From NCBI RefSeq assembly GCF_020723905.1, contig NZ_DYHZ01000001.1, positions 489,501-553,500 on the forward strand: 64,000 nt of DNA. Reading direction: 5' to 3'. Below, in pieces: positions 47,941 through 64,000 of this stretch (positions are counted from its first letter, which is position 1; each line of letters opens with the position of its first letter). The notes beneath the pieces were generated by a model. It was not told the origin of the DNA. It searched no databases and saw only the letters and a list, made by a program, of their open reading frames with translations. Position numbers and translations under genes: made by a program. Source of the stretch: Anaerolinea thermophila (lineage in GTDB: Bacteria > Chloroflexota > Anaerolineae > Anaerolineales > Anaerolineaceae).

Positions 47941-48015
47941 GAATGATTGCAACTTTTGCAAAATAAACACATCCAAATCAGTAGAAACCCTTTCAAGAAA
48001 GTGAGGAAAAATCCC

Positions 48016-48666
48016 ATGTCTGAACAAACACAAGTTTCCACCTTCCCGCGTTTGAACGAACCCGCTCCCGAATTTGAAGCCGTAACCACTCACGGCGTTC
48101 TGCGCCTTTCCGATTTCCGCGACCGCTGGTTAATTCTCTTCTCACACCCTGCCGATTTTACGCCGGTATGCACCACCGAATTCATCGCTTTTGCCGAGAT
48201 TTATCCCGAACTGCAAAAGCGCGGTGTGGATTTGCTCGGTTTGAGCATTGACAGCGTGTACTCGCACATTGCCTGGGTGCGCAACATCGAAGAGAAGACC
48301 GGCGTTAAGATTCCCTTCCCGGTGATTGCCGACCTGAACAAAGAAGTGGCGACCCTCTACGGCATGATCCAGCCCGGCGCCAGCAAGACCGAAGCCGTCC
48401 GCGCCGTCTTTATCATTGACCCCAAAGGCATTCTGCGGGCAATGATTTACTACCCGCTGACCACCGGTCGCAACATGGATGAAATCCTGCGCCTGATTGA
48501 CGCTCTGCAAACCAGCGATCAGTACGGTGTAGCCACCCCTGCCAACTGGAGACCCGGCGATAAGGTCATCGTCCCGGCACCCAAGACCGTGGACGCGGTG
48601 GATGTGACCCCCAAACCCGGCTACGAAGTGATTGACTGGTATCTGGTCAAGAAAGAATTGAAGTAA
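48016..48666 (+). CDS. Peroxiredoxin, Prx6 (1-Cys) type
   Basis: A 216-residue peroxiredoxin. ATG 48016 follows GTGAGGAAAA and is preferred to the frame start at 47947. The peroxidatic Cys52 lies in HPADFTPVCTTEFIAFAE, with the later conserved Arg in KTEAVRAVFIIDPKG. No second Cys is visible, and the long C-terminal arm (VATPANWRPGDKVIVPAP) marks the Prx6 group common in thermophiles. It reduces hydrogen and organic peroxides. The winged-helix gene follows after 3 bp, suggesting redox-linked or shared expression. Confidence 0.93.
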   Translation: MSEQTQVSTFPRLNEPAPEFEAVTTHGVLRLSDFRDRWLILFSHPADFTPVCTTEFIAFAEIYPELQKRGVDLLGLSIDSVYSHIAWVRNIEEKTGVKIPFPVIADLNKEVATLYGMIQPGASKTEAVRAVFIIDPKGILRAMIYYPLTTGRNMDEILRLIDALQTSDQYGVATPANWRPGDKVIVPAPKTVDAVDVTPKPGYEVIDWYLVKKELK

Positions 48667-48919: not shown

Positions 48920-48953
48920 GGGAGCCTGATATGAAAACAGGCTCCCGTTTTTT
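48920..48953 (+). terminator. Rho-independent terminator after the winged-helix gene
   Basis: A 9-bp perfect stem GGGAGCCTG/CAGGCTCCC around a nine-base loop, then GTTTTTT. It overlaps the last bases of the convergent glycosidase gene. Confidence 0.88.
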
Positions 48954-51270
48954 AAGAAGGAATTTTCTGCAAGACAATGCTGCCATCCTGAACCGTCAGC
49001 CTCACTGCGCCGGATGGGAGGTGGAGCACCTCTCCAGCATGGATCACCTGATAGCCATCCAGAGATAACTGTGCCGTTCCTTCTGCCGGCTCTATCTGGA
49101 ATATGAGACGGTCTTCCGTCTCCACAATTCCTGTCACCTCGCTGGTCAAATAATCAATACACACCCCAGCGCGCGCCTGCCACTCCAGTGGCAAAATCAA
49201 CCCCCGGCGTGCGGGCAGGCAGAGAGGCAACCCGCCAAATAATTCCTGCCCCTGCAATGAGATTCGCGCTTCCACCGGATCATCCTGGTAATTGTTGACG
49301 AACAGGAACCTGCCGTTTTCCCCTTCGCTCAGGCGCACATCCAGCCAGTCGCTCAATTCAAACTGTGATGGGCAATCCATACGGACAGCCATGCGGTGCA
49401 GGACTTCGAGATCTTCCAGCGTATTTGCCGGGAACGCCGCACCCAGCATCATAACCTGCCCGGCGCCCAGAGAACGAATAAAGCCCACCGCTTCCCCCTG
49501 TTGATTAAAGGCAAAGACCTCGTCAAAATCGCCCTCAAAACGCTCCACAAAAGATGCAGGGATGTCCGGCAAATCCCAGATCCGAATAGAAGCACCTTCA
49601 AACGGCTCAGCATCGTAGATTGCGCGAATGCCCAGCGCATCCCTGAGCAGGGTACAGGGACGATGAAGGAAATCCTCCTCGCACATGCGCCCCACCAGAA
49701 TCAACCTGCCGCCTTGTTGCACATACTCCACCAGTTTTTGTTGAACAGAAGCATCGCACTGCTTCTCCATCATGACCCATAAAACAGGAAAACGGGCTGG
49801 AGTCAGAGTTGCCCGGCTGAGTTCCACCGCATTGAACGGACGATGGATCAGTGCCAATCCGCGGGCGATAAAATCAAACAAAACCACCTCTCGCTGATGG
49901 GTAAGCACATCCGTCTGTGGACGGGTAGCGGGATGATTCACCTCGGTCATAAAGTAGTCCAGTACAAACCCAACTGTGGTGATCACACGGGGCTTTGCCA
50001 GCGTCAAATCCTCCCCATATGCCTGAAGCACCCGTGAAAGTCTGGGGTAGCGGTGGTAATGCCGCCGCAGGGAGCCGTCCTTTCGCACCGGGTGTCCCCA
50101 GTCATGCCGTTTGACCGGGCTGAGAACAGGATGATTTTCCCCATCAAAAAACAGGTAATGGTTGAACGCCCGCATGCCCACCGACAGACACAGACGGGTA
50201 TGCAAATCGTAGAAAGAAGTCTGTGCACCGCCAAAATCCTGATTTCCTCCTGCCTGAAACTCAATGGAAAAGAGCGGCTGGCAGGGATTCTGCAGGGCTC
50301 TGGTCATTTCGTTGACCAGCAAGAGTTGATGAAAATTGCCTTCCCCAATCTCCAGCGGGTACACATCTGTAGCGCTGAGCATACCCGGAATCTCCATGAC
50401 TTCCACCAGTTGAGACAAGCCAATGGGAAAGGTCTTACCGCCATTCCCAAACCCATGGATATTGATGACCGGCGGCACCTCCATTCCACAGGCTCGAGCT
50501 TGCTCCCAAAGCCATCCGGCATACTCCCGCAGATAATGCCGGTAGAACCGGCGGTATTCCTCCACAACCCATCTGCCGTACACCGCGCTGGGCGATTGCA
50601 TTTCCTGCCGGAGAAAATCCTCCAACCCCTCTAACGGTACGCCTGCGGGGATATTTTTTCCATATATTTCCCGCAAGTACGTCGCAAAACGCGAAAGCGT
50701 GTCGGGATGGATATCCAGCAGATTCCGCACCCAGTGAATCATGCCCATTTCGTTATCTAACTGCACCAGCAAAATGTTTCCCCCGTGGGTCACCTGCCGC
50801 GGCGTCAACACCCCAAACACTGCCCGATACCAGGTCTGGACGCAGGTAAGAAAGTCCGGGTGCAGGTAAGTGACAATATTCTGAGGCTTGCCATCCTGCC
50901 CGATCAAAGCCACCTGCGGGTACCGTTCAAACACCCATGCAGGAATACCTTCGTTTCGGGTCTCTGCCATAATGTAGGGTCCCGGACGGGCAATGATCCA
51001 CAACCCCATCTGCGTTGCCAGATCCAGAAAACCCTGCAAATTGCGCAGAGGATGGGTATGCCCATCCAGATCTATTTCATCGGGATCCGGCTGATGCCAC
51101 AACCACGGAATATAACTGGCAACGGCATTAAACCCGGCCTGTTTCAGCAAGCCTAAACGATGCTCCCACTGATCGGATGGGGTACGGAAATAATGAAACT
51201 CACCTGCCTGCAAAAGAACCGGATGATCATCCAGCCAGAACTGCCCGTCCTTAACCGAGAAGTTTGCCAT
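48952..51270 (-). CDS. GH35-type beta-galactosidase-like glycosidase
   Basis: A 772-residue protein without a signal peptide. The TIM barrel opens with LLQAGEFHYFRTPSDQWEHR, GFNAVASYIPWLWHQPDP and IIARPGPYIMAETRNEGIPA, all GH35 signatures. The acid/base Glu lies in LVQLDNEMGM (usually QxENEYG) and the nucleophile probably in LFSIEFQAGG. The C-terminal 300 residues form a Rossmann-like trimerisation domain and beta domains, as in GH42-like enzymes. It probably removes terminal beta-linked sugars from imported oligosaccharides in the cytoplasm. It is the last gene of the large uptake operon, 4 bp after the cytoplasmic PF10091 gene. Confidence 0.83.
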   Translation of the reverse strand: MANFSVKDGQFWLDDHPVLLQAGEFHYFRTPSDQWEHRLGLLKQAGFNAVASYIPWLWHQPDPDEIDLDGHTHPLRNLQGFLDLATQMGLWIIARPGPYIMAETRNEGIPAWVFERYPQVALIGQDGKPQNIVTYLHPDFLTCVQTWYRAVFGVLTPRQVTHGGNILLVQLDNEMGMIHWVRNLLDIHPDTLSRFATYLREIYGKNIPAGVPLEGLEDFLRQEMQSPSAVYGRWVVEEYRRFYRHYLREYAGWLWEQARACGMEVPPVINIHGFGNGGKTFPIGLSQLVEVMEIPGMLSATDVYPLEIGEGNFHQLLLVNEMTRALQNPCQPLFSIEFQAGGNQDFGGAQTSFYDLHTRLCLSVGMRAFNHYLFFDGENHPVLSPVKRHDWGHPVRKDGSLRRHYHRYPRLSRVLQAYGEDLTLAKPRVITTVGFVLDYFMTEVNHPATRPQTDVLTHQREVVLFDFIARGLALIHRPFNAVELSRATLTPARFPVLWVMMEKQCDASVQQKLVEYVQQGGRLILVGRMCEEDFLHRPCTLLRDALGIRAIYDAEPFEGASIRIWDLPDIPASFVERFEGDFDEVFAFNQQGEAVGFIRSLGAGQVMMLGAAFPANTLEDLEVLHRMAVRMDCPSQFELSDWLDVRLSEGENGRFLFVNNYQDDPVEARISLQGQELFGGLPLCLPARRGLILPLEWQARAGVCIDYLTSEVTGIVETEDRLIFQIEPAEGTAQLSLDGYQVIHAGEVLHLPSGAVRLTVQDGSIVLQKIPS

Positions 51271-51274
51271 GAGT

Positions 51275-52507
51275 TTATTCCTTTCTAGAGGTAAAGCCCA
51301 GAATCCCCAGGGCTTTCTGAACGAGCGGGCTGTTTGTATACACGTCCCATACCAACCCCGTCAGATAGTTCTCGAGCATGATCATGGAAAGACCTTTGTT
51401 AAACCCATACAGCGCCTGACTGTACCACGGCGGAAGTACGTCCAGATTGTAAGCATCATAGAAGCCGTATTTTCCCCACGTCTGTGGGTGGTGATGATAA
51501 AGATACTCTGCCATTGCCAGCACTTCCTCTGGCGCAAAGGGAAGGGAAGCCAGCGCTCCAGAAATGGAGACCGTACCATCATGCTCGGGTTCCTGCAAGG
51601 CAGGGGCGCTTCCAAAAACCCGGTACCCATGCGGACTATCGCCTGCGTTCAACCCCCAGGAATGGGCGTGATAGGTGCGATAGCGATGCGCATTCTGCAT
51701 GCAAAAGGCTCGGTTGGCAAGCGTTGCCAGACGGGAATTTTCAAACCAGTCAACGCCATCCGGGTCCAGCAGCGAGCGGACATCCAGCCATGCCTCACTC
51801 AACTGGTAACAGAACAGGTTACCACCCGGATTGATGATGATAGACTTTCCCTCAAACTCTCCCGTGTGTCGAGTAAACCCGGCATACAGAGCGCGGGCAG
51901 TCTCTGAATGGAGGAATGGCGCGGCTTGCAGATACATCATCTTTTGCTCTGCCGCCATATCCCATTGATGGATAAAACCCGGATCACCGCCAACGTAATC
52001 CCCATCCCAATCCGGATTGTACGCCATGCGGAAGAGGGTCTTATTGTCTTTTTCAAACACGATAAACTGCCAGTCCACACGATGAAGAAGAGCCCCGGCA
52101 AGGTCATTTGTTTCTACATCGTCAAAATACGCCGCTGCAGTGATCACGCCGTTCAGGCAAATCGCCGTATCAATGGTGGAGTACTCGCACTTCCCGTGCC
52201 GCCCTGCGGTTTCCAGATCCAGAAAATGGGCAAAAAAACCGCGGTGGTGCGGAACATGCTCCAGCAGAGTGTGCAGGGTGCGGCGGACAATTTGAAGCGC
52301 CTGAGCGCGGCTTAACCGGCTGTGTTCATATGCAAGGACCCAGCCGGTCAGGGCAAACCCCACACTGGCAATGGAAGCAATCTGCGGGGTTTTTGTCGTA
52401 TCCACTGCCAGCCCAAATCCACGACTGGATGGATTCAAATTGGTGGTTTGCAGGAAAAAGTCAATCGAGCCGTTGAGTTCCTGTTCGATAATCTGCCGGG
52501 CTTTCAT
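51275..52507 (-). CDS. Cytoplasmic PF10091 (GH144-like) glycosidase
   Basis: A 410-residue protein. ATG 52507 follows AAGGTGAGG and is preferred to the longer frame. Family signatures are SIASVGFALTGWVLAYEHSR, EYSTIDTAICLNGVITAAAY, HQWDMAAEQKMMYLQAA and YGFYDAYNLD, which match the glucoamylase-like domain that includes GH144 endo-beta-1,2-glucanases. No signal peptide is present, so it acts on imported oligosaccharides. It overlaps the end of the LacI gene by 47 bp, which points to tight coupling. A secreted paralogue is encoded at 53509. Confidence 0.8.
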   Translation of the reverse strand: MKARQIIEQELNGSIDFFLQTTNLNPSSRGFGLAVDTTKTPQIASIASVGFALTGWVLAYEHSRLSRAQALQIVRRTLHTLLEHVPHHRGFFAHFLDLETAGRHGKCEYSTIDTAICLNGVITAAAYFDDVETNDLAGALLHRVDWQFIVFEKDNKTLFRMAYNPDWDGDYVGGDPGFIHQWDMAAEQKMMYLQAAPFLHSETARALYAGFTRHTGEFEGKSIIINPGGNLFCYQLSEAWLDVRSLLDPDGVDWFENSRLATLANRAFCMQNAHRYRTYHAHSWGLNAGDSPHGYRVFGSAPALQEPEHDGTVSISGALASLPFAPEEVLAMAEYLYHHHPQTWGKYGFYDAYNLDVLPPWYSQALYGFNKGLSMIMLENYLTGLVWDVYTNSPLVQKALGILGFTSRKE

Positions 52508-53516
52508 GTTGAGCCTCACCTTGAGAAGAGGAAGAACGAAGCAGAGATGACCGACGCACAATCAAGCGGGTGGGCATGCGTTCCATGGTGATGGACTTTT
52601 CTTCTTCCAGAAAGTCAATTAACTGCCGCGCGGCTTTGCTTCCCCACAGATGACGAGACATATTGACCGACGAAAGCGGCGGGTTAAGAAACGGCGCCAG
52701 GACAATATCATCGAAGCCAACCACGCCCACATCTTCAGGAATGCGCAACCCGTGTGCCTGAAAGGCTTTCATCAGCCCGATTGCCATCTGGTCATTGGCA
52801 CAGAAAACCGCCTCAGGGACATCATGATTTTCAATCATCTGCAAAGCGGCTTGATAACCCGATTTTTCGTTGAAATCGCCCTGATAGATACGATACTGAA
52901 CCTGGTGCTTATCGGCTTCTTCCATGAACGTGAGCATACGCTCACGGTTGTCAAAGGAATCCCCGGCACCGGAGACGAAGTGCACCAGCCGCGCTCCCTG
53001 CTCTACCAGATGCGCCATCACCTCCCGGACGCCGTTAACGTTATCAATCAGTAGAGGGAATAAATAATCCACCTTGAGGAAACGATCCAGCGCTACAATG
53101 GGAAAACGCTGCGAAGCAAGCCGTATGAGAGTTTCACTGGGAATGCGGGTGTCAAAGACGATTGCGCCGTCCACCTGGCGCTGAGTTAAAATCTTGCTGA
53201 TGGTGCGGCTCGCCGGGCATACAATTAAGTCGTACTGTGTTTCCAGCGCCACCGCATGGATGCCGTCCAGAATTTGTTCAAAGAACAACCCGCCAAACCC
53301 GGAAATGAACACGCCGATCGTATGGGTTTTGCGCTTCTTCAGATGGCGCGCAAAGGCATTGGGATGGTAATTCAGTTCCTCAGCGGCTTTGAGCACGCGC
53401 TGGCGAGTTTCTTCGCTGATGGTCCCGGTTCCGTTCAGGGCATAGGAAGCCGCAGCAATGCTTACCCGGGCATACTTTGCCACATCCTTAATGGTCACGC
53501 CGTCTTTTTTAGCCAT
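52461..53516 (-). CDS. LacI family transcriptional regulator
   Basis: A 351-residue regulator. The N-terminal helix-turn-helix is VTIKDVAKYARVSIAAASYA with the hinge helix region HPNAFARHLKKRKTHTIGVF. The periplasmic-binding-like sensor domain has DGAIVFDTRIPS, VEQGARLVHFVSGAGD, AVFCANDQMAIGLMKAF and VGVVGFDDI. It probably senses an intracellular oligosaccharide and controls this operon, in which it lies. The extended C-terminal tail (after RLIVRRSSLL) is produced by the overlap with the next gene. Confidence 0.92.
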   Translation of the reverse strand: MAKKDGVTIKDVAKYARVSIAAASYALNGTGTISEETRQRVLKAAEELNYHPNAFARHLKKRKTHTIGVFISGFGGLFFEQILDGIHAVALETQYDLIVCPASRTISKILTQRQVDGAIVFDTRIPSETLIRLASQRFPIVALDRFLKVDYLFPLLIDNVNGVREVMAHLVEQGARLVHFVSGAGDSFDNRERMLTFMEEADKHQVQYRIYQGDFNEKSGYQAALQMIENHDVPEAVFCANDQMAIGLMKAFQAHGLRIPEDVGVVGFDDIVLAPFLNPPLSSVNMSRHLWGSKAARQLIDFLEEEKSITMERMPTRLIVRRSSLLRSSSSQGEAQHESPADYRTGTQRLD

Positions 53517-54897
53517 GTTTTTCCAGATTTAAACGCTCCAGTCCTTTCAGAATGATGGGGTTCTGCATCATAATTCGCCAGACAATCTCATCTTCATAGT
53601 TTGCCAGCATCAGGAGCGAAATGCCTTTATCAATACCAATTACATCACTGGCATACCATTTTCTGGTCAAATTATATGCATCCTTAAACCCGTAACGCCC
53701 TTTGAGGGCTTCAATGGTGTAGTAATTCTGCATGGCGCGCAGGGAATCTTGTGGGGTAAAGACAATCGAGCCAATCGCTCCAGCAGGGGGGATGGTATCG
53801 TCCACCAGATGGGCTTTATTGTCATATCCTGAGGGGGGAGCGCCGTACCTGCCCTCATACCCGTTGGGCCCATCGCAGGCGGTTAACCCCCAGGCGTCTG
53901 GTCCCAGGGTCAGGTATTTTGCATCCATAGTTTCGGCATAACGCACCTGCGCCAGCGAGGCTTGCACCGAATTTTCAAACCAGTTCACCCCTTTCTGATC
54001 TGTGTAGTTGCGAAAATCCAGCCAGGCATGGCTGAACTGATAGGTAAAGAGGGAGCCAAACCATGAGTGAATGAACGGTTTAACCCCTTCTCCGTATTTC
54101 GCCACGTGGCGGGTAAAAGTATAGTAGGGTCTGGCATCCACGGGATGGGTATCGGACCCAGCTGCCAGCACGTAAAGCATCAACTGTTCGGCGTAAAAAT
54201 CCCAGTGCCCTTCAAAACCTTTTTCGGGGCGGTAAGCCATGTAAAACATCTGCCGGGATTCGTCCAGAAACCATCCCCAGTTGACCGCATCGTACAGGCG
54301 CCGGGCTTTTTGTTCAATTTCCCCACCAAAGTACTGACCGACGGAAAGCACTCCCATGAACAGGATTGCCGTATCAATGCTGGAAACCTCGCTCTCCCAC
54401 GCCCGCTTACCGGATTGCATATCCAGAAAATGATAGTAAAAGCCTTCTGTCCGCTCCAGATTTTCCAGCGTATCCAGTGTGCGGGTCACCCGTTCAAAAG
54501 CCTGTTCGTAGGAAATGTACCCCTTTTCCACGCCAACGATGTAAGCCGTCAATCCAAATCCCAGCGAGGCAATACTGGCAATGCCCTCTGAACCGGGGTA
54601 GCGGTCTCGAATCAACCCATAAGCGGGGCTGTCAGGATCGGTATTTGCCTGTTCCCAGAAGAAATCGAAAGCGCCTTTCATCTCATAAGCCACAATTTCT
54701 TCCGGGTCTACCGGTACCGGCGTAAGCGTCGACGTTGGAGAAGGCTCTGCCGTGGAAGTGACGGTGAGTACAACCTGCGTGAAAGTAGGCTCGGGGGTGA
54801 ACGAAAGCACAGGTGACATCGTAGTCCGTGTGGCAGGAGTCGCACAGGCAGAGAGCACAAGCGCCACCGACAGAAGGGAAACAAAAAGTTTATTCAC
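53509..54897 (-). CDS. Secreted PF10091 (GH144-like) lipoprotein glycosidase
   Basis: A 462-residue lipoprotein (lipobox VLSAC, Cys18) starting with GTG, overlapping the permease stop by 8 bp. A Thr/Pro-rich linker spans about 20-60, then the same domain as the gene at 51275: IASIASLGFGLTAYIVGVEK, EVSSIDTAILFMGVLSVGQY, GHWDFYAEQLMLYVLAAGSD and YGFKDAYNLTRKWY. Family members hydrolyse beta-1,2-glucan. Anchored outside the membrane, it could cut the polymer before import by the adjacent permeases. Confidence 0.82.
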   Translation of the reverse strand: MNKLFVSLLSVALVLSACATPATRTTMSPVLSFTPEPTFTQVVLTVTSTAEPSPTSTLTPVPVDPEEIVAYEMKGAFDFFWEQANTDPDSPAYGLIRDRYPGSEGIASIASLGFGLTAYIVGVEKGYISYEQAFERVTRTLDTLENLERTEGFYYHFLDMQSGKRAWESEVSSIDTAILFMGVLSVGQYFGGEIEQKARRLYDAVNWGWFLDESRQMFYMAYRPEKGFEGHWDFYAEQLMLYVLAAGSDTHPVDARPYYTFTRHVAKYGEGVKPFIHSWFGSLFTYQFSHAWLDFRNYTDQKGVNWFENSVQASLAQVRYAETMDAKYLTLGPDAWGLTACDGPNGYEGRYGAPPSGYDNKAHLVDDTIPPAGAIGSIVFTPQDSLRAMQNYYTIEALKGRYGFKDAYNLTRKWYASDVIGIDKGISLLMLANYEDEIVWRIMMQNPIILKGLERLNLEKHG

Positions 54898-55822
54898 CGG
54901 TAATTCCCGTCCTTTCTACGGATTCGACAAACCATTTTTGCATGACAAAATACATCAACAACAGCGGCAGGATATTGAGGAATGTGCCGCTCATCTTCAC
55001 CGCTTCATTGATGCGGTCAAAAATGTTGACCATACCTGGCGGATAGAGATTTTCATACGCCTGAGTGAATTTTGCCAGTTGCATCGGCAGGGTCTGAATC
55101 CCGCCCTCGAGGAAAATGACCGTCAGGTACGTTTCGTTCCAATACCACACAATGGAGAAGATGATTGAAATAACATAGGCTGGGATAGCCGTTGGCACGG
55201 CAATACGTGCAAAGACCAGCCAGTCTGAGGCTCCATCCAGGCGAGCGGCTTCTTCCAGCACTTTGGGCATGGATACAAACATCTGATAAAAAATCAGGAT
55301 GAAGATAGCACTACGATATCCCTGTCCAAAAGTTGCCGGAAGAAGGAGCGAGAGGATATTGCCCAGCAATCCCAACTGGCGGTAGGTGAGCATCTGCGGG
55401 ATGACAGTGGTTTGCGGCGGGATGATGAAGGTTGCCAGAATCAGCCCCATGATGAGATGCTTCCCCGGAAACCGGTAACGCGCCAGCCCATAACCGATTA
55501 CCGAGCACACCAGCGTTTGAATGAGCGATGGAGCCACACTGACCAGAATGGTATTCACCAGGTTGACGGGGTAGTTCAACACCCGGAAGGCTTTGACATA
55601 ATTCCCCAGATACAACTCGCTGGGGACCCATTGCACCATGGGATTGAGCAAATCCTGCGGGCTTTTGATGCTGGTGACGAACATGAACAACAACGGGTAA
55701 AGATAGACAAAACCAATGGCAATGAGAAGCAGGTAAAGAAACAGGGTAAAAAGCGCCCCATAACTGGTACGGCTTCCCAGAAGCCACAGTCGAATGCGTT
55801 CTTTGTTAACCGTAAACCTCAT
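54890..55822 (-). CDS. Sugar ABC transporter permease, MalG type (pair 2)
   Basis: A 310-residue permease with six helices. ATG 55822 follows GAGGAGG at six bases, better than the longer frame start at 55852. It has FMFVTSIKSPQDLLNPMV after helix 1 and the EAA loop EAARLDGASDWLVFARIAVP, which docks to the ATPase. It pairs with the MalF-type gene 10 bp upstream. Together with the pair at 60950-62799 the operon has two complete permease pairs. Confidence 0.9.
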   Translation of the reverse strand: MRFTVNKERIRLWLLGSRTSYGALFTLFLYLLLIAIGFVYLYPLLFMFVTSIKSPQDLLNPMVQWVPSELYLGNYVKAFRVLNYPVNLVNTILVSVAPSLIQTLVCSVIGYGLARYRFPGKHLIMGLILATFIIPPQTTVIPQMLTYRQLGLLGNILSLLLPATFGQGYRSAIFILIFYQMFVSMPKVLEEAARLDGASDWLVFARIAVPTAIPAYVISIIFSIVWYWNETYLTVIFLEGGIQTLPMQLAKFTQAYENLYPPGMVNIFDRINEAVKMSGTFLNILPLLLMYFVMQKWFVESVERTGITGE

Positions 55823-55832
55823 GGCAACCTCC

Positions 55833-56714
55833 TCACCGCTCCCTTGTGCCAAAGGTCAACCCGGCATAAACCACACCCAGCAGCACCACCAGCGCCAGGA
55901 AGAAAATATACGACATGGCGCTGGCATAACCAATGCCACCCTGTACATCATAAGTGCGGGAGTAGATATAGCGAATCACCTCATTTTCGGAAAAGTGCGA
56001 CAGGGTAATGATGGTATAAACCGCATTGACAATGGTGGTTGACGTTAACGAGGGCAGGGTGATTTTCCAGAACGATTCCCAAGCCGAGGCGCCATCAATT
56101 GCGGCGGCTTCATAGATACTGCGGTCAATTTTCTGGAATCCTGCCAGATAAATCAGGATTTGCACCCCTGAAAACCAGAGGATGAGGATAAACGAAGTCA
56201 GCAGGTACTCTGCTGGATTACGCAGAAAAGCAGGCAACTGTTGCAGAAACTGCGTCACCGCCGCCGAGGAGGCTACCTGCGGTGCAGATGCCGCCCCCTG
56301 CGCGGTCAGTTCTTTGATGACCGGTCCGCTGGTAATGACCACCGGCAGGAAGAAAATCGTGCGGAACACCCCCCGCAACTTAAAGCGCAGGTTGAGCAAA
56401 AGCGCAATGATCATCGAGAAAATCAACACCACCGGCACAGAGACTAGCGTTTTGATCACATATTCAATGAGAAGTTCCACAAAGTTTGGATCGGTAAACA
56501 GAGCGCGGGTGTAATTTTGCCACTCCCGATAATCCATCACTATGCCCGTTGCCATAACAGTGACTTCATTCAAACTGTAACGCAAGGTTTCCACCAGTGG
56601 AGCCAGGGTGAACACCAGAAAGCCAACGATCCAGATGAGTACAAAGGTATAGCCATGCAGAGCTTCGCGAGCACGGTGCGACATCTCTCCACGGAGCAGT
56701 TTACGGATGTTCAT
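55833..56714 (-). CDS. Sugar ABC transporter permease, MalF type (pair 2)
   Basis: A 293-residue permease with six helices. The EAA loop is EAAAIDGASAWESFWKITLP. A periplasmic loop between helices 3 and 4 is somewhat extended (TAQGAASAPQVASSAAVTQF), which is unusual for this type. The start overlaps the DUF5696-type gene's stop by 4 bp, linking this pair to the upstream secreted protein. Confidence 0.9.
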   Translation of the reverse strand: MNIRKLLRGEMSHRAREALHGYTFVLIWIVGFLVFTLAPLVETLRYSLNEVTVMATGIVMDYREWQNYTRALFTDPNFVELLIEYVIKTLVSVPVVLIFSMIIALLLNLRFKLRGVFRTIFFLPVVITSGPVIKELTAQGAASAPQVASSAAVTQFLQQLPAFLRNPAEYLLTSFILILWFSGVQILIYLAGFQKIDRSIYEAAAIDGASAWESFWKITLPSLTSTTIVNAVYTIITLSHFSENEVIRYIYSRTYDVQGGIGYASAMSYIFFLALVVLLGVVYAGLTFGTRER

Positions 56715-58951
56715 GGCACACCTCCCACACTCAGATTCTCCACCAGGATCGCATCCCGCGGCGGGAAAGTCACCCCTTCCACCTGAAAAGGCTGATCCGT
56801 GTAATTCACCCCAATTTGTTTTCCATTGCTGTAGGTCACCAGTACCACGCCTTCCTGCAGTACCGTGCGAGAGACAATGCTTGCTCCGCGCACCGCACCC
56901 AGACGAGTGTTGAGCCAGTCATACACCCGTTCGATTTCCGCACGCCATTGATGAATGGAGGAAGTGTAAATCCAGCGCGAACGGGTTTCGAGGATTTTTG
57001 CCGTTTCTTGATAGGTAACAAAGAAGGATGGATATACGCCATAATCTGCATGACGCAACAGGTCTTCCTGAAGGTCAGGAGAAAAATTCAACGCCTGCCC
57101 GTAATATGGCACAAACCCGGAAAGGGCGATTTGCAGGAAAGGCACGGTATCGGTAGTGTAAAGATAACCACTACTGGAGGATGGAAGATCATACACGGCA
57201 GAAGTAACGCCCCACAGATAATCGTTCGGCGCGTACAAACCTACCGGAGTTGGCAAACCGCTTAACAGGTCCTGGTAAGCCGTGATGGTCTGCTCACGGT
57301 TCAAAGGTGGCCTGGTGCGAAAATCGCTGTAGAGAAGCGTGCCAATCCCGTCCAGCGCCAGCCCCAGGGGGGGATCCTCAAAGAAATCATCCGCCAGCGA
57401 GGTCAGACGTTCTTGAATGGCATCCAGGTTCAAATAATACTGCTTTTTAAAGCGGTTGTACCCTTCCAGATTAAGGTTGGCAATGGAACGAGCCAGATCA
57501 AACCGGGGGGAGTACCCCGGCTCTCCCAAATAAGCCGCCTGCGCGTCAAAATAGAGCGAGAGACGCCCTCCCTGTGCATGAACCTGTTCTGCCAGCGCGC
57601 GCAGGTCTGATTGCGAACCCAGAGCAGATTCCAGTTTCAGCGCGCTCGGGAACATGCTCGAAGGTCCCAGCGGTTGCCAGCCGTACAGGATCACCTCAGG
57701 ATGACTGACCTGAAGTGTCTCCACAATCTGACGGGCCTGCTCAAATGTAGTCATCGGGATGGCTTCATTCCAGAGGAGAACCTTCCTGCGCTCAGCAGTA
57801 AGAAACTCCAGGCGAATGCCAATGCGATCATCCAGAATGGGACTGGCTTTGAGCATACCCTTTTGCCGTAAATACTGCTGGTAACTGCGCGCCATACCCA
57901 CGTAATCGCTATCGCCTCCGGTGAGGAAGCGGTAGTGCAACACCACATCAAAAGCGTTGGTCTGCGGCTGCAGGGCAGTCACCCCCGCACCGGCACGGTT
58001 GGTAGGCTGGAAATAACTCTCATTGTAAATAAACGCATAGTGGAGAAAATTAAACGAGGTAATGATACCCGCAGGGTGAGCCTGGATCTCGGCGTAACCC
58101 GCACCGCGTTCCAGAACGGCAAGATAAGCATTTTGATGATACCCGTGCACCATTCCTATCACCGGAACCGAAACGCGGAAGGGACGACGCAAATCCGGGT
58201 CAAAAGCCATGCGGGTACTCATGCCCAAATCGGCGCCGTACACCCTGCCGTAAAACATATTCTTGGCTTTGGTCTGTGCGCTGAAGCGGATGAGCGCGCC
58301 AGCACCATCGGGCAGGAACATGTAGCCGGGCACTTCATCTCTGCGGGTAGCGGCAAAGAAGGGATATACATACAGCATACCCAGTTTAAACTCCGCCCTG
58401 TCCTGGCGAATACGATCAAAAGGTATCTCTACCCGCACACCGTCTTCTTCAAGGATCAGATTAACACCGATAGTAATTCCCGGATCGGTAAATGTCACCA
58501 GTGCCTCAACGCCTTGCGCCACAGGGCTCACTTCCAGAGTGTGTTTGGCGTTTGTGATGGAAGCCCGTTTGGGAGTGGCTTTCTGGTCGAGGTAATCAAT
58601 ACTGATACCGCTCTGAGCAAACGCCGTCCAGGTCTTATTCAAACGATCATCACGGGTAACCTCGTCCAGGTTGGAGTGCCACACATACCCGCTCCGCCGA
58701 TCCACCACCTTGAACGCCAGACGCTCGAAATCCACGAACAGGCGGAAAGTCTCATTTTCCGCAACCATGCGGTAGGATTCAGGGATATCCTGTCGAATCT
58801 GCCAGTCGGTGCGGAGGGTATCCACATGCGTGTACTGGTTGGTGGAATAGGCATCGGGCAGGCGCATGGCTTGAAGCGGCTGAACACCGAGGCTGAACAC
58901 CAGCACCGCAAGCAAAACCACTCTCCCGAAAAAGAATTTTGCTTTAGCCAC
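56711..58951 (-). CDS. Secreted DUF5696-type protein, possible glycosidase
   Basis: A 746-residue secreted protein. GTG 58951 is chosen: AGGAGG lies nine bases upstream, it overlaps the previous stop by 8 bp, and it gives a clean signal peptide. About 60-330 is beta-rich ([57 protein letters not shown]). About 390-650 looks like a TIM barrel ([33 protein letters not shown]), and a small beta domain ends it. A beta-sandwich before a barrel resembles GH31/GH101-type hydrolases, and Asp in [12 protein letters not shown] could be catalytic; this is inference. The position between two permease pairs suggests a glycan-processing or binding role outside the cell. Confidence 0.7.
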
Positions 58952-60953
58952 GGAGCCTGACCTCCTGCAAAATGCTTTGAATGAAGTCGAACAGTTGCCC
59001 AAAAAGGACATACAGAATGTAACCTGTCAGCAGGAACATGCCCATCGTAAAGAGGGTGATGAGAATGTTGCGCACGGTTTCAGAGAACGAGTAGTTGTGA
59101 ATTTCCATCACCATCAGGAAGAGCATTAACCCTACCCAGGCATACATTAACTGCGTGGAGAAGGTGAAAATGAACACCTCGTTCAGGGTCAGAACATTCG
59201 AAAGCAAGGCAATGGGCAATGAAAACAGTGCGTAAGGGAACAAACTGTACGCCGTACCAATGACCACATCGCGAATCCTGCCTTCGCCGTCGCTGATGGT
59301 CGAGACCAGGTAGTTGGCAGCGTTCCACAGGAAAATCAACCCGACGGTGTAAAGAATTTCATTCTCCACCCGGATAAACGCCGGCGAAGGATATGGGTTA
59401 AAGGGAAACGCCGTAAGATACAGCGAGAGAATCCGTGCAATCACCACCCACGCATAGAGGACAAAAGCAAAGCGCAAACTACCACGCAGATTCTTTTTGA
59501 TGTAGTAAAAACTGTCGGCAGGCTGTTTGATAAAACGGAAGAGGAACACGAAATCGTCAACCCATTTATAGCGCAACAGTCCGTTCAACCAGGCACGCAC
59601 AGGGTCCAGCCAGCGCTTCCGCCGTTCCAGGCGTTGGAAAATGCTCTGCGCCAGCGAGAATACCATCACCCCCACAATGAAAGGCGAAAGGTACTTTTGC
59701 AGGATGACATTGCGCAATTCCCAGAAGGCTTGCGAGTAACCCTGGCGATCATACGCATAACGGTAGGACTGCAAAGCGCGGGGAAAATCGCGTTCCTTGA
59801 AATAAGCATCTGCCAGCGCCTGATACGCCAGGATAAACGAACCATTATAGGTGAGGATCTCCTCGAAATAGGGTTTGGCTTCGCTATAATACCCCTCCAT
59901 GTACAGGCGCACGCCCTGATGGACACGGCGGGCAAATTCCGTCGCCCGATAGATAACCACCGCGTTCTTGTCCTTATCCAGCACATAAATCTGTCCCTGA
60001 TAACGCGCCACTGCGGTGGGATTGATCAGCGTACCCATGCGCTGATCGCCCTGGTCTTTGGCTTTGAAGCGGAAAAGCAAAAAGCCCTTGGTATCGTACT
60101 CGTAAATTTCTCCATCTGCGCTCACCGCGACCAGTAAACCATCCTCGCTGACATGAACATCGCGAAAGGCGGAAGAGCCCACAGTATCAGGGAAAACGTT
60201 CTTCCCGGCGATGGTGAATTTGCGGATGCTCTTGTTGGGGAACGTACCGGCGGTGATGGTATAAACCATCGCCTGCCGGTCAATGGTGATGTTAGAGGGA
60301 GACGCGGCTTCGTTTTTGACGAACTGCTCCAGTTGCTCTTTGGTGAGAAACAAACGCTGGAGAATCATTTTGAGCGACATGGTGGCGGTGTTCGCACCAA
60401 AATAACCGATGAAGCGCCCATCCATGTTCATTTGCACCACGCCATTGACGGAACCCTCACTGATGATGTAGAGATTTTTACGTGGATCTACGGCAATTTT
60501 GCGCGGTAAAAACTCCCGTGTCTTTCCAAACAGTGGCTCTTTGGGACGACCAAATTCTTTGAACAGGGTGCCATCGGGCTGAAAGATGAACACTTCATTC
60601 TTCTTGGCATCGGCGACGTAAACCAGTCCATCTTCATCTACGAACACTCCCGTTGGGCTCTGCAAAACACCCTTGCCCATCACCATGGTTTCCTGAAAAT
60701 TCCTGAACTGTACAATTCTGCCCTTACCCGTATCTGCCACGTAGAGAGTGCCATCAGGCATAATGACCATATCCTCCGCGCCAGAGATGGGCAAATCCAC
60801 CTCCGCCACAGGGATATAGGCATCCTGCGTCATAAAAAGACGTCCGCCCGGACCCAGCGCCCAGGTGGTATAGGGCGGATCAGCGCTCACCTGTGGTCTG
60901 GGAAGAGCGAGCAGGACCACAAAAATCAACAGAACAAGGCGAAACTGTTTCAT
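58944..60953 (-). CDS. NHL-propeller/TPR/Yip1-like membrane protein
   Basis: A 669-residue protein. ATG 60953 overlaps the permease stop (ATGA) and gives a signal peptide; the longer frame runs through the permease gene. Residues 25-345 carry NHL-type repeats ([53 protein letters not shown]), so a beta-propeller outside the membrane. About 350-420 are TPR-like ([39 protein letters not shown]). From 440 on are about six helices with a Yip1-like core. It may bind glycan or the solute-binding protein and dock it to the permeases. I know no characterised protein with this order. Confidence 0.75.
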
Positions 60954-61858
60954 CCCTTCAGCCCCGAGTGAGACATGGTGCTCATCACCTGACTCTGCAT
61001 GAAGATGAAAATGATCAGGTTCGGCAGGAACATGATCAGCGAAGCCGCCGCGGCAATTCCCTGACCGGCAACCACATTGGCACCCGCTGACGTTGAGGTC
61101 AGTGTGGTGAGGTAAAAAGCAAATGTCTTGAGACTTTCGTTGGTGATGTACAACGAGGATGTATCGGCGTTGTTCCATGCCGCCTGAAACGAGAGGATGG
61201 CAATGGTGGCAATCGCCGGGCGGATCATCGGTAGAATGATCTGCCAGTAAATCCACAGGTCAGAAGCCCCGTCAATCTGCGCCGCTTCCACTACCTCATC
61301 CGGTATGCCGTCAATAAACTGCTTGATAAGGAACAATCCCACCGGCATTGCCAGCATGGGTAGAATGTGCACCCAGAAGGTATCCATCAGATGTAAACGC
61401 TCAATGATGAGAAAGCGCGGGATGGTCACGGCAATGGGCACAAACATCAACGCCACCGTATTAATGGCAAAAAGGGTTTGCTTCAATTTAAAACGCTTTT
61501 TGGAGAGTGCATATGCCGCCGTAGAGGAAATCACCACCGAAGTCACCACCGTTACCACCGTCACTACAATGCTGTTGAACAGGTAGCGGCTGACCGGAAT
61601 GCTGGAAGCAGACATGCGGCTGAACAAATCTGCGAAGTTTTTCAGGGTAGGATTGACGACAAAGAAACGCGGTGGGTAAGCAAACAATTCATCCGGCGGC
61701 TTGAAAGCGTGGGAGAAGATAAAGATGATTGGCAGGAGCATAAATGCCGAGAGGGGCAGGAGAATCAGATAAAACTTAATCTGGCTGGGATGAAACCCCT
61801 GTGGATTAATGCCCCGATTGCGATAACTGGATACTGTTCGAAACCATCTTCTGCGCAT
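60950..61858 (-). CDS. Sugar ABC transporter permease, MalG type (pair 1)
   Basis: A 302-residue permease with six helices. ATG 61858 follows AAGGA and lies 11 bp after the MalF-type stop; the longer frame would overlap it. It has [20 protein letters not shown] and the EAA loop [20 protein letters not shown]. It pairs with the gene at 61870 and is distinct in sequence from pair 2, so this is not a recent duplication. Confidence 0.9.
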
Positions 61859-61869
61859 GGCAATTTTCC

Positions 61870-62799
61870 TTACTCTTCTCTGAACAACCGGTTTGCCACC
61901 CGGGCAAAGAACCACACCATCAGCAACAACACTACCGAAACCGCGGCTGCGTAGCCCATTTCGTAGCGGAAAAAGCCGTAATCCTCAATGTGATTGACAA
62001 TCAATTGCCCGGCATACTGCGGGGTAGGATTGCTTCCTGAGAGGGTCACCCCGATGGATCCCGCCTGGAAGGTGGCAACGATTGCCATGACCGCTCCAAA
62101 GAGCATTTGCGGTTTCATCGAAGGAATGGTGATATAGATGATTTCCTGAAAGCGGTTGCGAATGCCATCAATACTGCCTGCCTCATACAGTTCGGGATTG
62201 ATCTCGAGAATCCCCGCCAGCATGGCTAAGAACCCCACCCCCATGCTGCTCCACAGAGTCACAATGATCATGATAGGCATGAGGTAATGGGGAGACTGCA
62301 ACCACTGAATCGGCTCTTGAATAAGATTGAGGCTGAGCAGGAAACTGTTGAGATAGCCGGTCTGATCCCCGCTGAACAGCGCCTGCCATACTACCGTCAT
62401 CGCCACTCCTGCCGTCATGGAAGGAGAGTAAAGAATCAACGCAAAAATGGTGCGAGGCACTTTGGGCAATTGTGCCAGCATCCACGCCAGGATGAAGGAA
62501 AGCAGGTATCCCCCCGGTCCTACAAGGACAGCAAACTGGATCGTATTAGGGAGGACATACCGCATGAAGATATCATCCTGTGTCAACAGGGTGATATAGT
62601 TCTTTAAGGCAAGGAAATGCGGCGGCTGAATCGTATCGAAGAAGGTAAAGGAGAGCAAAATGGCAACCAGCACCGGCACCGCGATAAAAATCAGGAACAT
62701 CAGCGCATACCCGGACACAAATCCATAGGCACTGGCTTCTTTCATCCACCACTTTTTGAGCGAAAGCACGAGAGAAGATTGAGATTTAGCGGTTTGCAT
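61870..62799 (-). CDS. Sugar ABC transporter permease, MalF type (pair 1)
   Basis: A 309-residue permease with six helices. The EAA loop reads [20 protein letters not shown], with Gly-Ser in place of the usual two Ala. [20 protein letters not shown] precedes helix 2. It overlaps the 3' end of the solute-binding protein gene by 14 bp, so binding protein and pair 1 form the conventional importer unit. No ATPase gene accompanies it; a shared MsmK-type ATPase elsewhere is implied. Confidence 0.9.
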
Positions 62800-64000
62800 T
62801 CTCCATCCAGCCTTTCACAGTTTCAATGGTGGGAACTTTGATTTCCCTGACCCGCACGCCGTTTTGAATGTACCCAAACTCTTCCATTTTGCGCAAAATC
62901 TCGCGGTTAATCACAATGACGGCGTTATCAATTGCCACGCGGGGATTGGCGCCATCAAAGACGATGCGATTCCAGACATTGCTCAACTCACGTTCCTGCA
63001 TGTAACTTCCCGGCAGTTTCACCGGTTCCTGCAACCACTGCCACTGTTCCAGGATCACTTCTTTATGCTCTTCAGGAATGGGCAGGGCTTTGAAGGCTTC
63101 CAGATTGGCGGAATTCCACAGGTATTCCAGCCCGTAGTTGAGGATCAACTCCTGCTGGAAGGACTTCTGCGTCTCGGTGGACATCCACCATTTAAGGAAC
63201 GCCCACGACTCCGCCGGTTTATCGGTATCGGCAAACATGATACAGGCTTGCGCAGATCCGGTAGCGTAGCGCAGTTGCCTGCCATCAGGCAACACTGTAG
63301 CCGGGTAAAGACTCATCCCCCATAAACCGTCAATCTCCGGTGCTGCGGTGAGTAGTTTGATATACGTCTCAAAGTTGGAAATGCCAATCGGGATACTGCC
63401 GTAACGGAAGCGGTCGTAAAAATTGGCAGTGGTGAGGGGCATGCCGTAAATCGTGAAACTCTCCGCCATGAAGCGGATGGCGTTAATGGCTTCCTCTGTA
63501 CCCAGACCCGACATACCGTCCGGGGTGTACAGTTGCGCGCCATGGTTGAAAATATAGGGTGCGGTGACCAGATACCCCTTCAACCCTGCGCCGCTGGAGA
63601 GGGGTGTATTGTAGTTCAAACCATAACGCTGAAGTTCGGGGAGAATTTCAATCACTTCCTGCCAGGTCTGGGGGATGGGCAAGCCCAGTGACCCCATCAC
63701 ATCGCGGCGGTAATACGTCACCCAGAAATCCTGCGTTTCCGGAATGGCATATACCGAATCATCAATGATGTATGAAAGCAATGAGCCGGGTGAATAAATG
63801 CGAATGAAAGCGTCAAAATCATCGAACGAACGCAAATCATACAGTGCGTTGCGGATGGCAAGTTCGTAAGGAATATTGGTGCTGATGCCCAGCGCCACAT
63901 CCGGTTGAATCCCCGCGGCAACCGCCAGTGCCAGTTTGGACTCGTTAGGCATAATTGCAAATCTCACCTTAATGCCGGTTTGGGGAGTAAACTGCTGATC
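62786..64000 (-). CDS. Sugar ABC transporter solute-binding protein, partial
   Basis: The C-terminal part, about 404 residues, of a family 1 extracellular solute-binding protein; the N-terminus with its signal or lipoprotein peptide lies beyond 64000. An internal GTG at 63967 is not the real start, as the frame continues to the edge ([12 protein letters not shown]). Typical family stretches are [43 protein letters not shown] and [19 protein letters not shown]. It delivers an oligosaccharide to the permeases. It is the first visible gene of the operon. Confidence 0.9.

Follow-up and report, generated by a model that had tools for sequence, protein, structure and literature searches.

A predicted β-1,2-glucan operon of Anaerolinea thermophila carries a conserved seven-gene transport module with a glycosidase-like component

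The DNA analysed here, referred to as the window, is a 64,000-nucleotide (nt) stretch of Anaerolinea thermophila (Chloroflexota; contig NZ_DYHZ01000001.1, G000:C5:489501-553500), the end of which carries a minus-strand operon predicted to mediate the uptake and breakdown of a glycan. The operon comprises 13 genes and continues upstream beyond the window end. From its upstream end it encodes a glycoside hydrolase (GH) family 94 protein, two solute-binding proteins (SBP2 and SBP1), the permeases F1 and G1, a protein with NHL, TPR and Yip1 regions (NHL/TPR/Yip1), a DUF5696 protein, the permeases F2 and G2, a putatively secreted PF10091 protein, a LacI-family regulator, a second, predicted cytoplasmic PF10091 protein and a GH35-type enzyme, whose gene forms the 3′ end. 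Between SBP1 and GH35 neighbouring genes overlap at nine of the ten junctions and are separated by 4 nt at the last; NHL/Yip1 and DUF5696 overlap by 8 nt, with a GTG start for the latter, and the gaps in the upstream part of the operon, beyond the window, are 155 and 107 nt. The cytoplasmic PF10091 gene was assigned the ATG start at 52507, its longest open reading frame (ORF) beginning at 52561. A first-pass annotation of the window had recognized ten minus-strand genes, nearly all overlapping or abutting, with one visible binding protein. Every gene that it named is present on the strand and at the place given, and the tight packing is evident from the junctions; the count, however, is 11 operon genes when the binding protein is included, and while the C-terminal part of SBP1 is indeed the only binding protein within the window, SBP2 was found beyond it. 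The operon arrangement is far above chance, and the same gene order is retained in other genomes.

The part of the operon that is conserved most widely is a core of seven genes, SBP1-F1-G1-NHL/TPR/Yip1-DUF5696-F2-G2. Scanning a named genome collection with a profile returned 82 DUF5696 relatives; 80 were retained, a sample that is biased by the two peptide patterns employed. Role profiles for the core genes were built from Chloroflexota loci, and a locus was considered assessable if its flanks extended 8 kb or more upstream and 2.2 kb or more downstream; 20 of the 80 named loci are cut by contig ends. The core was intact in 48 of the 60 assessable loci, in both Chloroflexota and Bacillota. Of the 12 non-intact loci, ten retain NHL/Yip1-DUF5696-F2-G2 but not the whole of the first half, L152 (L and G numbers denote loci and genomes) is complete except that a single frame joins F2 and G2, and L171 contains a lone DUF5696 gene. 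The fusion, in a rumen Bacilli genome, is a single open frame of 636 amino acids (aa; L152:12050-13960). A further 43 loci, some of them on contigs of the named ones, provided 33 assessable cases, of which 31 were intact and two, L070 and L071, both from genome G244, were different, with the halves in reverse order in L071. Two plasmid records, from Paenibacillus and Butyrivibrio, display the same core order in their public annotation; in Butyrivibrio, as in some other genomes, separate genes encode NHL and Yip1. At the glucan-type locus L160:6875-14074 G1 is present and neither F1 nor SBP1 was detected upstream, reflecting either an assembly fault or a real loss, and L151 and L122 appear frame-broken.

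The core proteins also occur in the same genomes. In a single draw of 301 genomes from the phylum, with thresholds chosen after the gaps were visible, a full DUF5696 match (E<1e-70) was present in 26. The NHL/Yip1 profile reached E<=0.001 in 219 genomes, NHL propellers being common, and strong matches (E 1e-30 or better) were restricted to the same 26, the next best being 1.3e-25 and the weakest of the 26, G593, being a contig end. The N-terminal half of SBP1 was identified in 24 genomes, all within the 26; in the two that lack it, G169 and G593, DUF5696 is near a contig end. Conserved co-occurrence was one of the tests that the first-pass annotation had set for its proposal, and the DUF5696/Yip1/paired-permease neighbourhoods, including the Paenibacillus ones to which it had pointed, are indeed conserved. 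A search of the open-access literature, in which hits for the module were judged by listing, found no paper describing the module and none on DUF5696. The new part of the system is this seven-gene core, which is shared by at least two phyla.

Regulation of the operon was explored through the non-coding DNA upstream of GH94. A perfect 16-bp palindrome of LacI type, with a central CG, lies just upstream of this gene and occurs once in the genome. The exact 16-mer was found in 4 of 298 genomes of the class and its reversed control in one. The four with the 16-mer all have the locus, the site lying 11-12 kb upstream from DUF5696, and all four encode GH94 there. A survey of 22 stretches, four without a visible GH94 and one with GH94 cut by the contig end, left 17 testable loci. 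A site with at most four mismatches is located near the GH94 start in all 17, the A. thermophila locus included (13 with at most two, 15 with at most three), a count in which the pattern derives from that locus and 4 of the 17 are close relatives (family f82). With the reversed pattern the count was 0/17, and with shuffled patterns it averaged 0.3 and reached 4 at most; of 155 further 700-nt windows taken from these loci, one contained a site. In three loci the sole site falls within the longest ORF, the start of which was presumably called too early. Across the A. thermophila genome operator-like sites with up to three mismatches are at background (10 forward, own site included, versus 10 for the reversed control), a scan with a guessed LacI-like consensus produced no match in its own loci, and scans for promoters (4 versus a shuffle mean of 5.8) and terminators (8 versus 8.7) were at or below shuffle level. 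The N-terminal region of LacI is alike among orthologues, and we infer that LacI is the candidate reader of the palindrome. Judged from sequence, the tight gene overlaps and the one conserved operator upstream of GH94 favour a single regulated unit, as first proposed, over separately transcribed halves.

Table 1. Features of the operon and its candidate operator, in window coordinates
Feature	Coordinates	Strand	Evidence
GH35-type enzyme, without signal peptide	48952..51270	-	PF01301 E 2e-39; 7vkw E 7.9e-74, residues 13-664
PF10091 protein (GH144-type), without signal	51275..52507	-	PF10091 E 6.2e-66; 8xul XCC2207 E 9e-36; 5gzh E 2.4e-27
LacI-family regulator	52461..53516	-	PF00356 E 7.6e-18; PF13377 E 2.9e-33
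PF10091 protein (GH144-type), lipoprotein-like signal	53509..54897	-	PF10091 E 2.5e-65; 8xul E 1.8e-66
Permease G2 (MalG-like), core	54890..55852	-	PF00528 E 7.3e-14; EAA loop at residue 201
Permease F2 (MalF-like), core	55833..56714	-	PF00528 E 1.9e-8; EAA loop at residue 202
DUF5696 protein, core	56711..58951	-	PF18952 E 4.5e-170; GTG start (longest ORF start 59011)
NHL + TPR + transmembrane helix + Yip1 protein, core	58944..60953	-	PF01436, PF04893
Permease G1 (MalG-like), core	60950..61915	-	PF00528 E 8.4e-18; EAA loop at residue 210
Permease F1 (MalF-like), core	61870..62799	-	PF00528 E 8.3e-11; EAA loop at residue 206
SBP1, C-terminal part, core	62786..64000	-	Whole gene 960 aa, reaches window position 65668
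SBP2, 482 aa, lipoprotein-like	65824-67272 (beyond window)	-	PF13416 E 3.6e-23
GH94 protein, 815 aa	67380-69827 (beyond window)	-	PF17167 E 3.3e-117; PF06165 E 9.4e-81
Candidate operator, 16-bp palindrome	69865-69880 (beyond window)		Upstream of GH94

Directly past the 3′ end of the operon, on the plus strand, is a 1-Cys peroxiredoxin gene (window 47947-48666).

The enzymes of the locus point to β-1,2-glucan. The best solved relative of the GH35-type protein is IaSGT (7vkw), ahead of 5gsm (E 5.8e-60) and 8oug (E 3.3e-52), and the alignment with IaSGT is in register at NE (173-174), at E337 within EFQAG and at E103. IaSGT is a β-1,2-glucosyltransferase in which roles are ascribed to an Asn-Glu acid/base motif, a nucleophilic Glu and Glu102 (PMC8861115). 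The enzyme is therefore predicted, by closest similarity, to be an IaSGT-type β-1,2-glucosyltransferase; an ordinary β-galactosidase was ruled out because IaSGT is the best solved relative, and the score against the NCBIfam exo-β-D-glucosaminidase model, 202 bits, is far under the cut-off of 1500. Both PF10091 proteins match the GH144 enzymes XcSGL and CpSGL. The structure 8xul is that of XcSGL (GH144, locus tag XCC2207; PMC12102758). Glu237 and Glu205 of the two proteins align to a Gln in chain 8xul, which we take to be a mutant of the clan Glu (XcSGL E239). The GH94 protein carries both domains typical of the family; none of the 20 GH94 structure matches listed is a stand-alone oligoglucan phosphorylase, solved structures of which exist. 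The N-terminal half of SBP1 is not SBP-like, whereas the binding domain (PF13416, E 9e-19) lies in the C-terminal half, the best solved relative of which is Lin1841, a sophoro-oligosaccharide binder (PMC12369401). The proposal of the first-pass annotation that the locus targets a β-1,2-linked glucan is thus supported by the similarity of GH35 to IaSGT, of both PF10091 proteins to GH144 and of SBP1 to Lin1841. No PF10091 protein was found elsewhere in the genome besides the two operon copies, and since no cyclic glucan synthase with PF10091 was found the glucan probably comes from outside the cell.

This substrate is not new, as the assignment, although sound, has a published precedent. The β-1,2-glucan cluster of Ignavibacterium album (IALB_1177-1187) encodes the same enzyme set as the operon studied here; the available portion of its description mentions an ATP-binding cassette (ABC) transporter and a TonB-dependent transporter and contains no mention of DUF5696, NHL/Yip1 or a double permease pair (PMC8861115). 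The Listeria innocua system lin1839-lin1843 likewise combines GH94 with an ABC importer that has an oligosaccharide binder, and the accessible accounts describe one binder and a GH3 enzyme (PMC12369401, PMC8861115). The A. thermophila locus differs from that of Listeria in its two permease pairs, two binders, DUF5696, NHL/Yip1, GH144-type and GH35 proteins. The permease genes of the Listeria system are numbered within lin1839-lin1843.

All four permeases in the window contain an EAA loop, giving two BPD_transp_1 pairs of the kind found in MalFGK-like (CUT1) importers, in line with the two MalF/MalG pairs first described. The loop is widely retained in the detected copies of F1 (96/98), G1 (92/100), F2 (102/111) and G2 (101/109). 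The reported absence of an ATPase also holds: no MalK-type ATPase is encoded in the operon, and the single OB_MalK protein of the genome is on another contig (C2:186966). The solved orthologue of SBP2 is PDB 22hh (E 3.7e-237), one of the entries 22hh-22hl for an ‘extracellular solute-binding protein family 1', and across the 265 residues compared 22hh matches, at every position, the SBP2 of L178, a locus with this same operon.

These data lead us to a reading that we consider probable, in which the locus is a LacI-controlled operon for β-1,2-glucan uptake and breakdown, assembled on a conserved general module of two coupled importers with a non-catalytic DUF5696 protein. Outside the cell the lipid-anchored GH144-type enzyme would cut β-1,2-glucan to oligomers, which SBP1 and SBP2 would capture. 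The pairs F1/G1 and F2/G2 would import them, drawing on a common MalK-type ATPase whose gene lies elsewhere, and the oligomers would then be processed inside the cell by GH94, the GH35 transferase and the second GH144-type enzyme. The module would consist of SBP1-F1-G1 as one importer; the other would be F2-G2, served by the dedicated accessory proteins NHL/Yip1 and DUF5696 and partnered by binders of the SBP2 type.

The model of DUF5696 was confident (predicted local distance difference test score (pLDDT) 91.2, predicted template modelling score (pTM) 0.89), and displays an N-terminal hydrophobic helix ahead of a GH129-like fold. The best solved matches are DagB (5opq; Z 28.0, root mean square deviation (rmsd) 3.8 over 574 residues) and NagBb (Z 27.3; for 5wzn, Z 27.2, rmsd 4.1 over 567 residues), with the next family at only Z 18.4. 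The DUF5696 alignment profile also detects DagB and NagBb by sequence (E 5.3e-13 and 1.5e-9). The likeness to these enzymes (PMC8106489, PMC5698469) thus covers the whole length of the fold and a detectable sequence profile. DUF5696 differs from them in lacking a family-wide catalytic acid pair and in being encoded together with a predicted ABC importer and a putative membrane scaffold. Weak DUF5696 matches were rejected as members of the module: L044 is a NagBb-like GH129 protein (5wzn, E 4.6e-96), and L011 resembles, by eye, an α-amylase N-terminus. NagBb-like GH129 proteins occur in Chloroflexota at L044:760-2664 and L042:805-2718, the latter 65% identical to L044.

Candidate catalytic positions were compared in 68 of 77 usable rows, of which 28, more than 42% identical to the window protein, form the glucan clade and 40 are others. 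No acid pair in the barrel is conserved family-wide in this tally, which argues that the role shared by DUF5696 proteins is not catalysis. Within the glucan clade, however, Asp554 is present in 26/28 rows versus 2/40 others, one of these two being L152 with its GH144-type genes, and position 597 is Asp in 25/28, with none listed for the others; Glu at 597 is found in 3/40 others and in no tallied clade row. Asn596 is invariant in the clade (28/28 versus 25/40), as is Asp563 (28/28 versus 33/40). The acid/base Glu of NagBb, E478, has no equivalent in the window protein, which has Asn and Asp at 596 and 597. It is conceivable that glucan-clade DUF5696 proteins are active enzymes of the GH129/GH167 type represented by NagBb and DagB, glycosidases or transglycosylases that trim, for example, a substituent or an α link before import, while their relatives are dead. 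The full-length GH129-like fold (Z 27-28) and the clade-specific Asp residues are consistent with such activity, but the NagBb nucleophile is Asp435 (PMC5698469), and in a profile alignment with two GH129 proteins D554 occupies the D430 position and is not paired with D435, which stands beside a gap, so that the mapping is unsettled. Furthermore, the Erysipelotrichaceae loci L154 and L158, of the same clade and with GH94 (L158 also with GH144 and GH35), have Gly at 554, and the neighbour of position 597 is the invariant Asn596. We regard an active enzyme as rather unlikely; DUF5696 is probably a non-catalytic, GH129-like ectodomain, most likely binding or presenting glycan rather than cutting it.

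The model of the NHL/TPR/Yip1 protein (pLDDT 87.9, pTM 0.75) comprises a signal-like helix, a propeller of the six-bladed type and TPR helices, together with a long helix at 412-455 and a Yip1 part that is also helical, and its solved structural matches are NHL propellers. The two large proteins between the permease pairs are where the first-pass annotation placed them; ‘secreted', however, is too simple a label for the NHL protein, given its Yip1 membrane domain. In our reading the propeller and TPR would be outside and a basic stretch inside, and the protein may act as a membrane scaffold with an extracellular propeller.

The position of these two proteins raises the question of whether the four permeases, NHL/Yip1 and DUF5696 form one physical super-importer, with DUF5696 and the propeller bridging two transport cores. 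The order is near-invariant, both accessory genes lie between the permease pairs and the same genomes share the parts. In addition, the distance matrices of the seven core proteins are correlated, with coefficients of 0.89-0.98 across 60 non-redundant loci and of 0.86-0.97 across 41 loci that do not belong to the glucan group, although an operon inherited as a unit would give such correlations as well. SBP1-F1-G1 is missing from eight Paenibacillus loci and from L141, likewise in Bacillota, and the halves are in the other order in L071. A single bridged complex is thus quite unlikely, and the indivisible double-permease machine originally envisaged is doubtful. The Paenibacillus loci without SBP1-F1-G1 favour the two coupled importers over such a machine; the half modules and L071 indicate that F2-G2 goes with NHL/Yip1-DUF5696, and the L152 fusion that F2 and G2 form one pair.

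The history of the module was examined in a quick maximum-likelihood tree (99 rows, midpoint-rooted, with SH-aLRT as the only support measure and several long branches). In it the Paenibacillus half modules, eight in number, group together (support 99) beside full modules, suggesting that the first half (SBP1-F1-G1) was probably lost in these bacteria; L141 is a separate half module. The glucan-type Chloroflexota proteins and two from Erysipelotrichaceae form one group of 33 (support 99), and other Chloroflexota modules are placed outside it. The two Erysipelotrichaceae proteins derive from metagenome-assembled genomes (L154, L158) that carry the Chloroflexota-type operon at 38% GC, whereas the three glucan-type Chloroflexota loci for which GC was determined (L131, L134, L135) have 55-61%, a difference that points to probable horizontal transfer of the whole unit rather than to binning error alone.

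Elsewhere the core is found beside varied cargo. GH2, GH42 and a GH106-like protein are encoded upstream of the half module L101 (the only half module scanned in this way), GH51-type domains next to the module in L119 and L123, GH16 in L159, GH13 in L162, a GLAA-B-type protein at L167 and GH43 at the Butyrivibrio locus, while L152 carries GH3 and two GH144-type genes. Glycan enzymes are common but not universal cargo. Because the flanking enzymes vary the core looks like a general import module; the suggestion that it is itself a β-1,2-glucan device does not stand, and the whole operon as a β-1,2-glucan speciality was ruled out, since the core is found with other cargo or none.

Several observations weigh against the overall interpretation. 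The GH35 protein is also near GlmA-type enzymes (E 5.8e-60) and the GH94 protein near cellobiose phosphorylases (E 1.6e-142), and the frequencies of D554 and D597 allow that glucan-clade DUF5696 may be a catalytic exception. Paenibacillus neighbours are mostly ATPases, binding proteins and regulators, and among 28 neighbours of 11 other Chloroflexota loci no glycoside hydrolase appeared in the 25 of 38 families shown; ten such neighbours viewed singly include an AnmK-β-lactamase, RNase J, RelA/SpoT, ThiG and a D,D-carboxypeptidase. For these loci glycan transport is predicted from homology of the transporter. The AnmK-β-lactamase fusion (L183:3789-6182) adjoins a freestanding module and, with the D,D-carboxypeptidase (L193:5332-6327), hints at a possible cell-wall link. 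Unusual cargo is also seen downstream of L072 (Paenibacillus cellulosilyticus plasmid NZ_CP054609.1), in the form of four LLM-class flavin-dependent oxidoreductases and two binding proteins.

The neighbourhoods also bear on whether the module is mainly a sensor or cell-surface complex in which permease-like subunits signal rather than import. Neighbour proteins were tallied for 29 loci from outside Chloroflexota, the commonest 25 of 72 families being covered; of the 113 proteins, 20 carry the OB_MalK ATPase domain, 19 SBP_bac_1, 6 a response regulator domain and 5 a histidine kinase domain. The last two, and a propeller and TPR suited to protein contacts, would fit a sensor, but EAA loops are retained in most copies of all four permeases, an ATPase is often adjacent and regulation here is by LacI, not a two-component system. 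A primarily sensory role is highly improbable, and we retain the view of a module of two coupled importers.

A glycosidase fold beside a transporter has a parallel in 4F2hc (SLC3A2), a catalytically dead glycosidase-like ectodomain that is the heavy chain of heteromeric amino-acid transporters. The comparison is an analogy: DUF5696 gives a weak TIM-barrel match (E 0.29-0.56), 4F2hc belongs to another GH family and another transporter class, and there is no evidence of homology beyond the barrel. By this analogy DUF5696 and NHL/TPR/Yip1 might be dedicated subunits, the one a pseudo-glycosidase ectodomain and the other a membrane propeller scaffold, of a new class of glycan importer that couples two ABC cores on a fixed chassis with swapped cargo, an idea that we advance tentatively, as less likely than not to be correct in full.

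If the proposed organization is correct, DUF5696 and NHL/TPR/Yip1, families without a known role, would become parts of a widespread importer, with a glycosidase fold put to new use as an accessory of transport. The module would provide a genomic marker for glycan uptake loci of unknown substrate in Chloroflexota and Paenibacillus, and a test case for the need of two permease pairs in an importer. The β-1,2-glucan locus of A. thermophila would offer a defined substrate with which to assay this general module.

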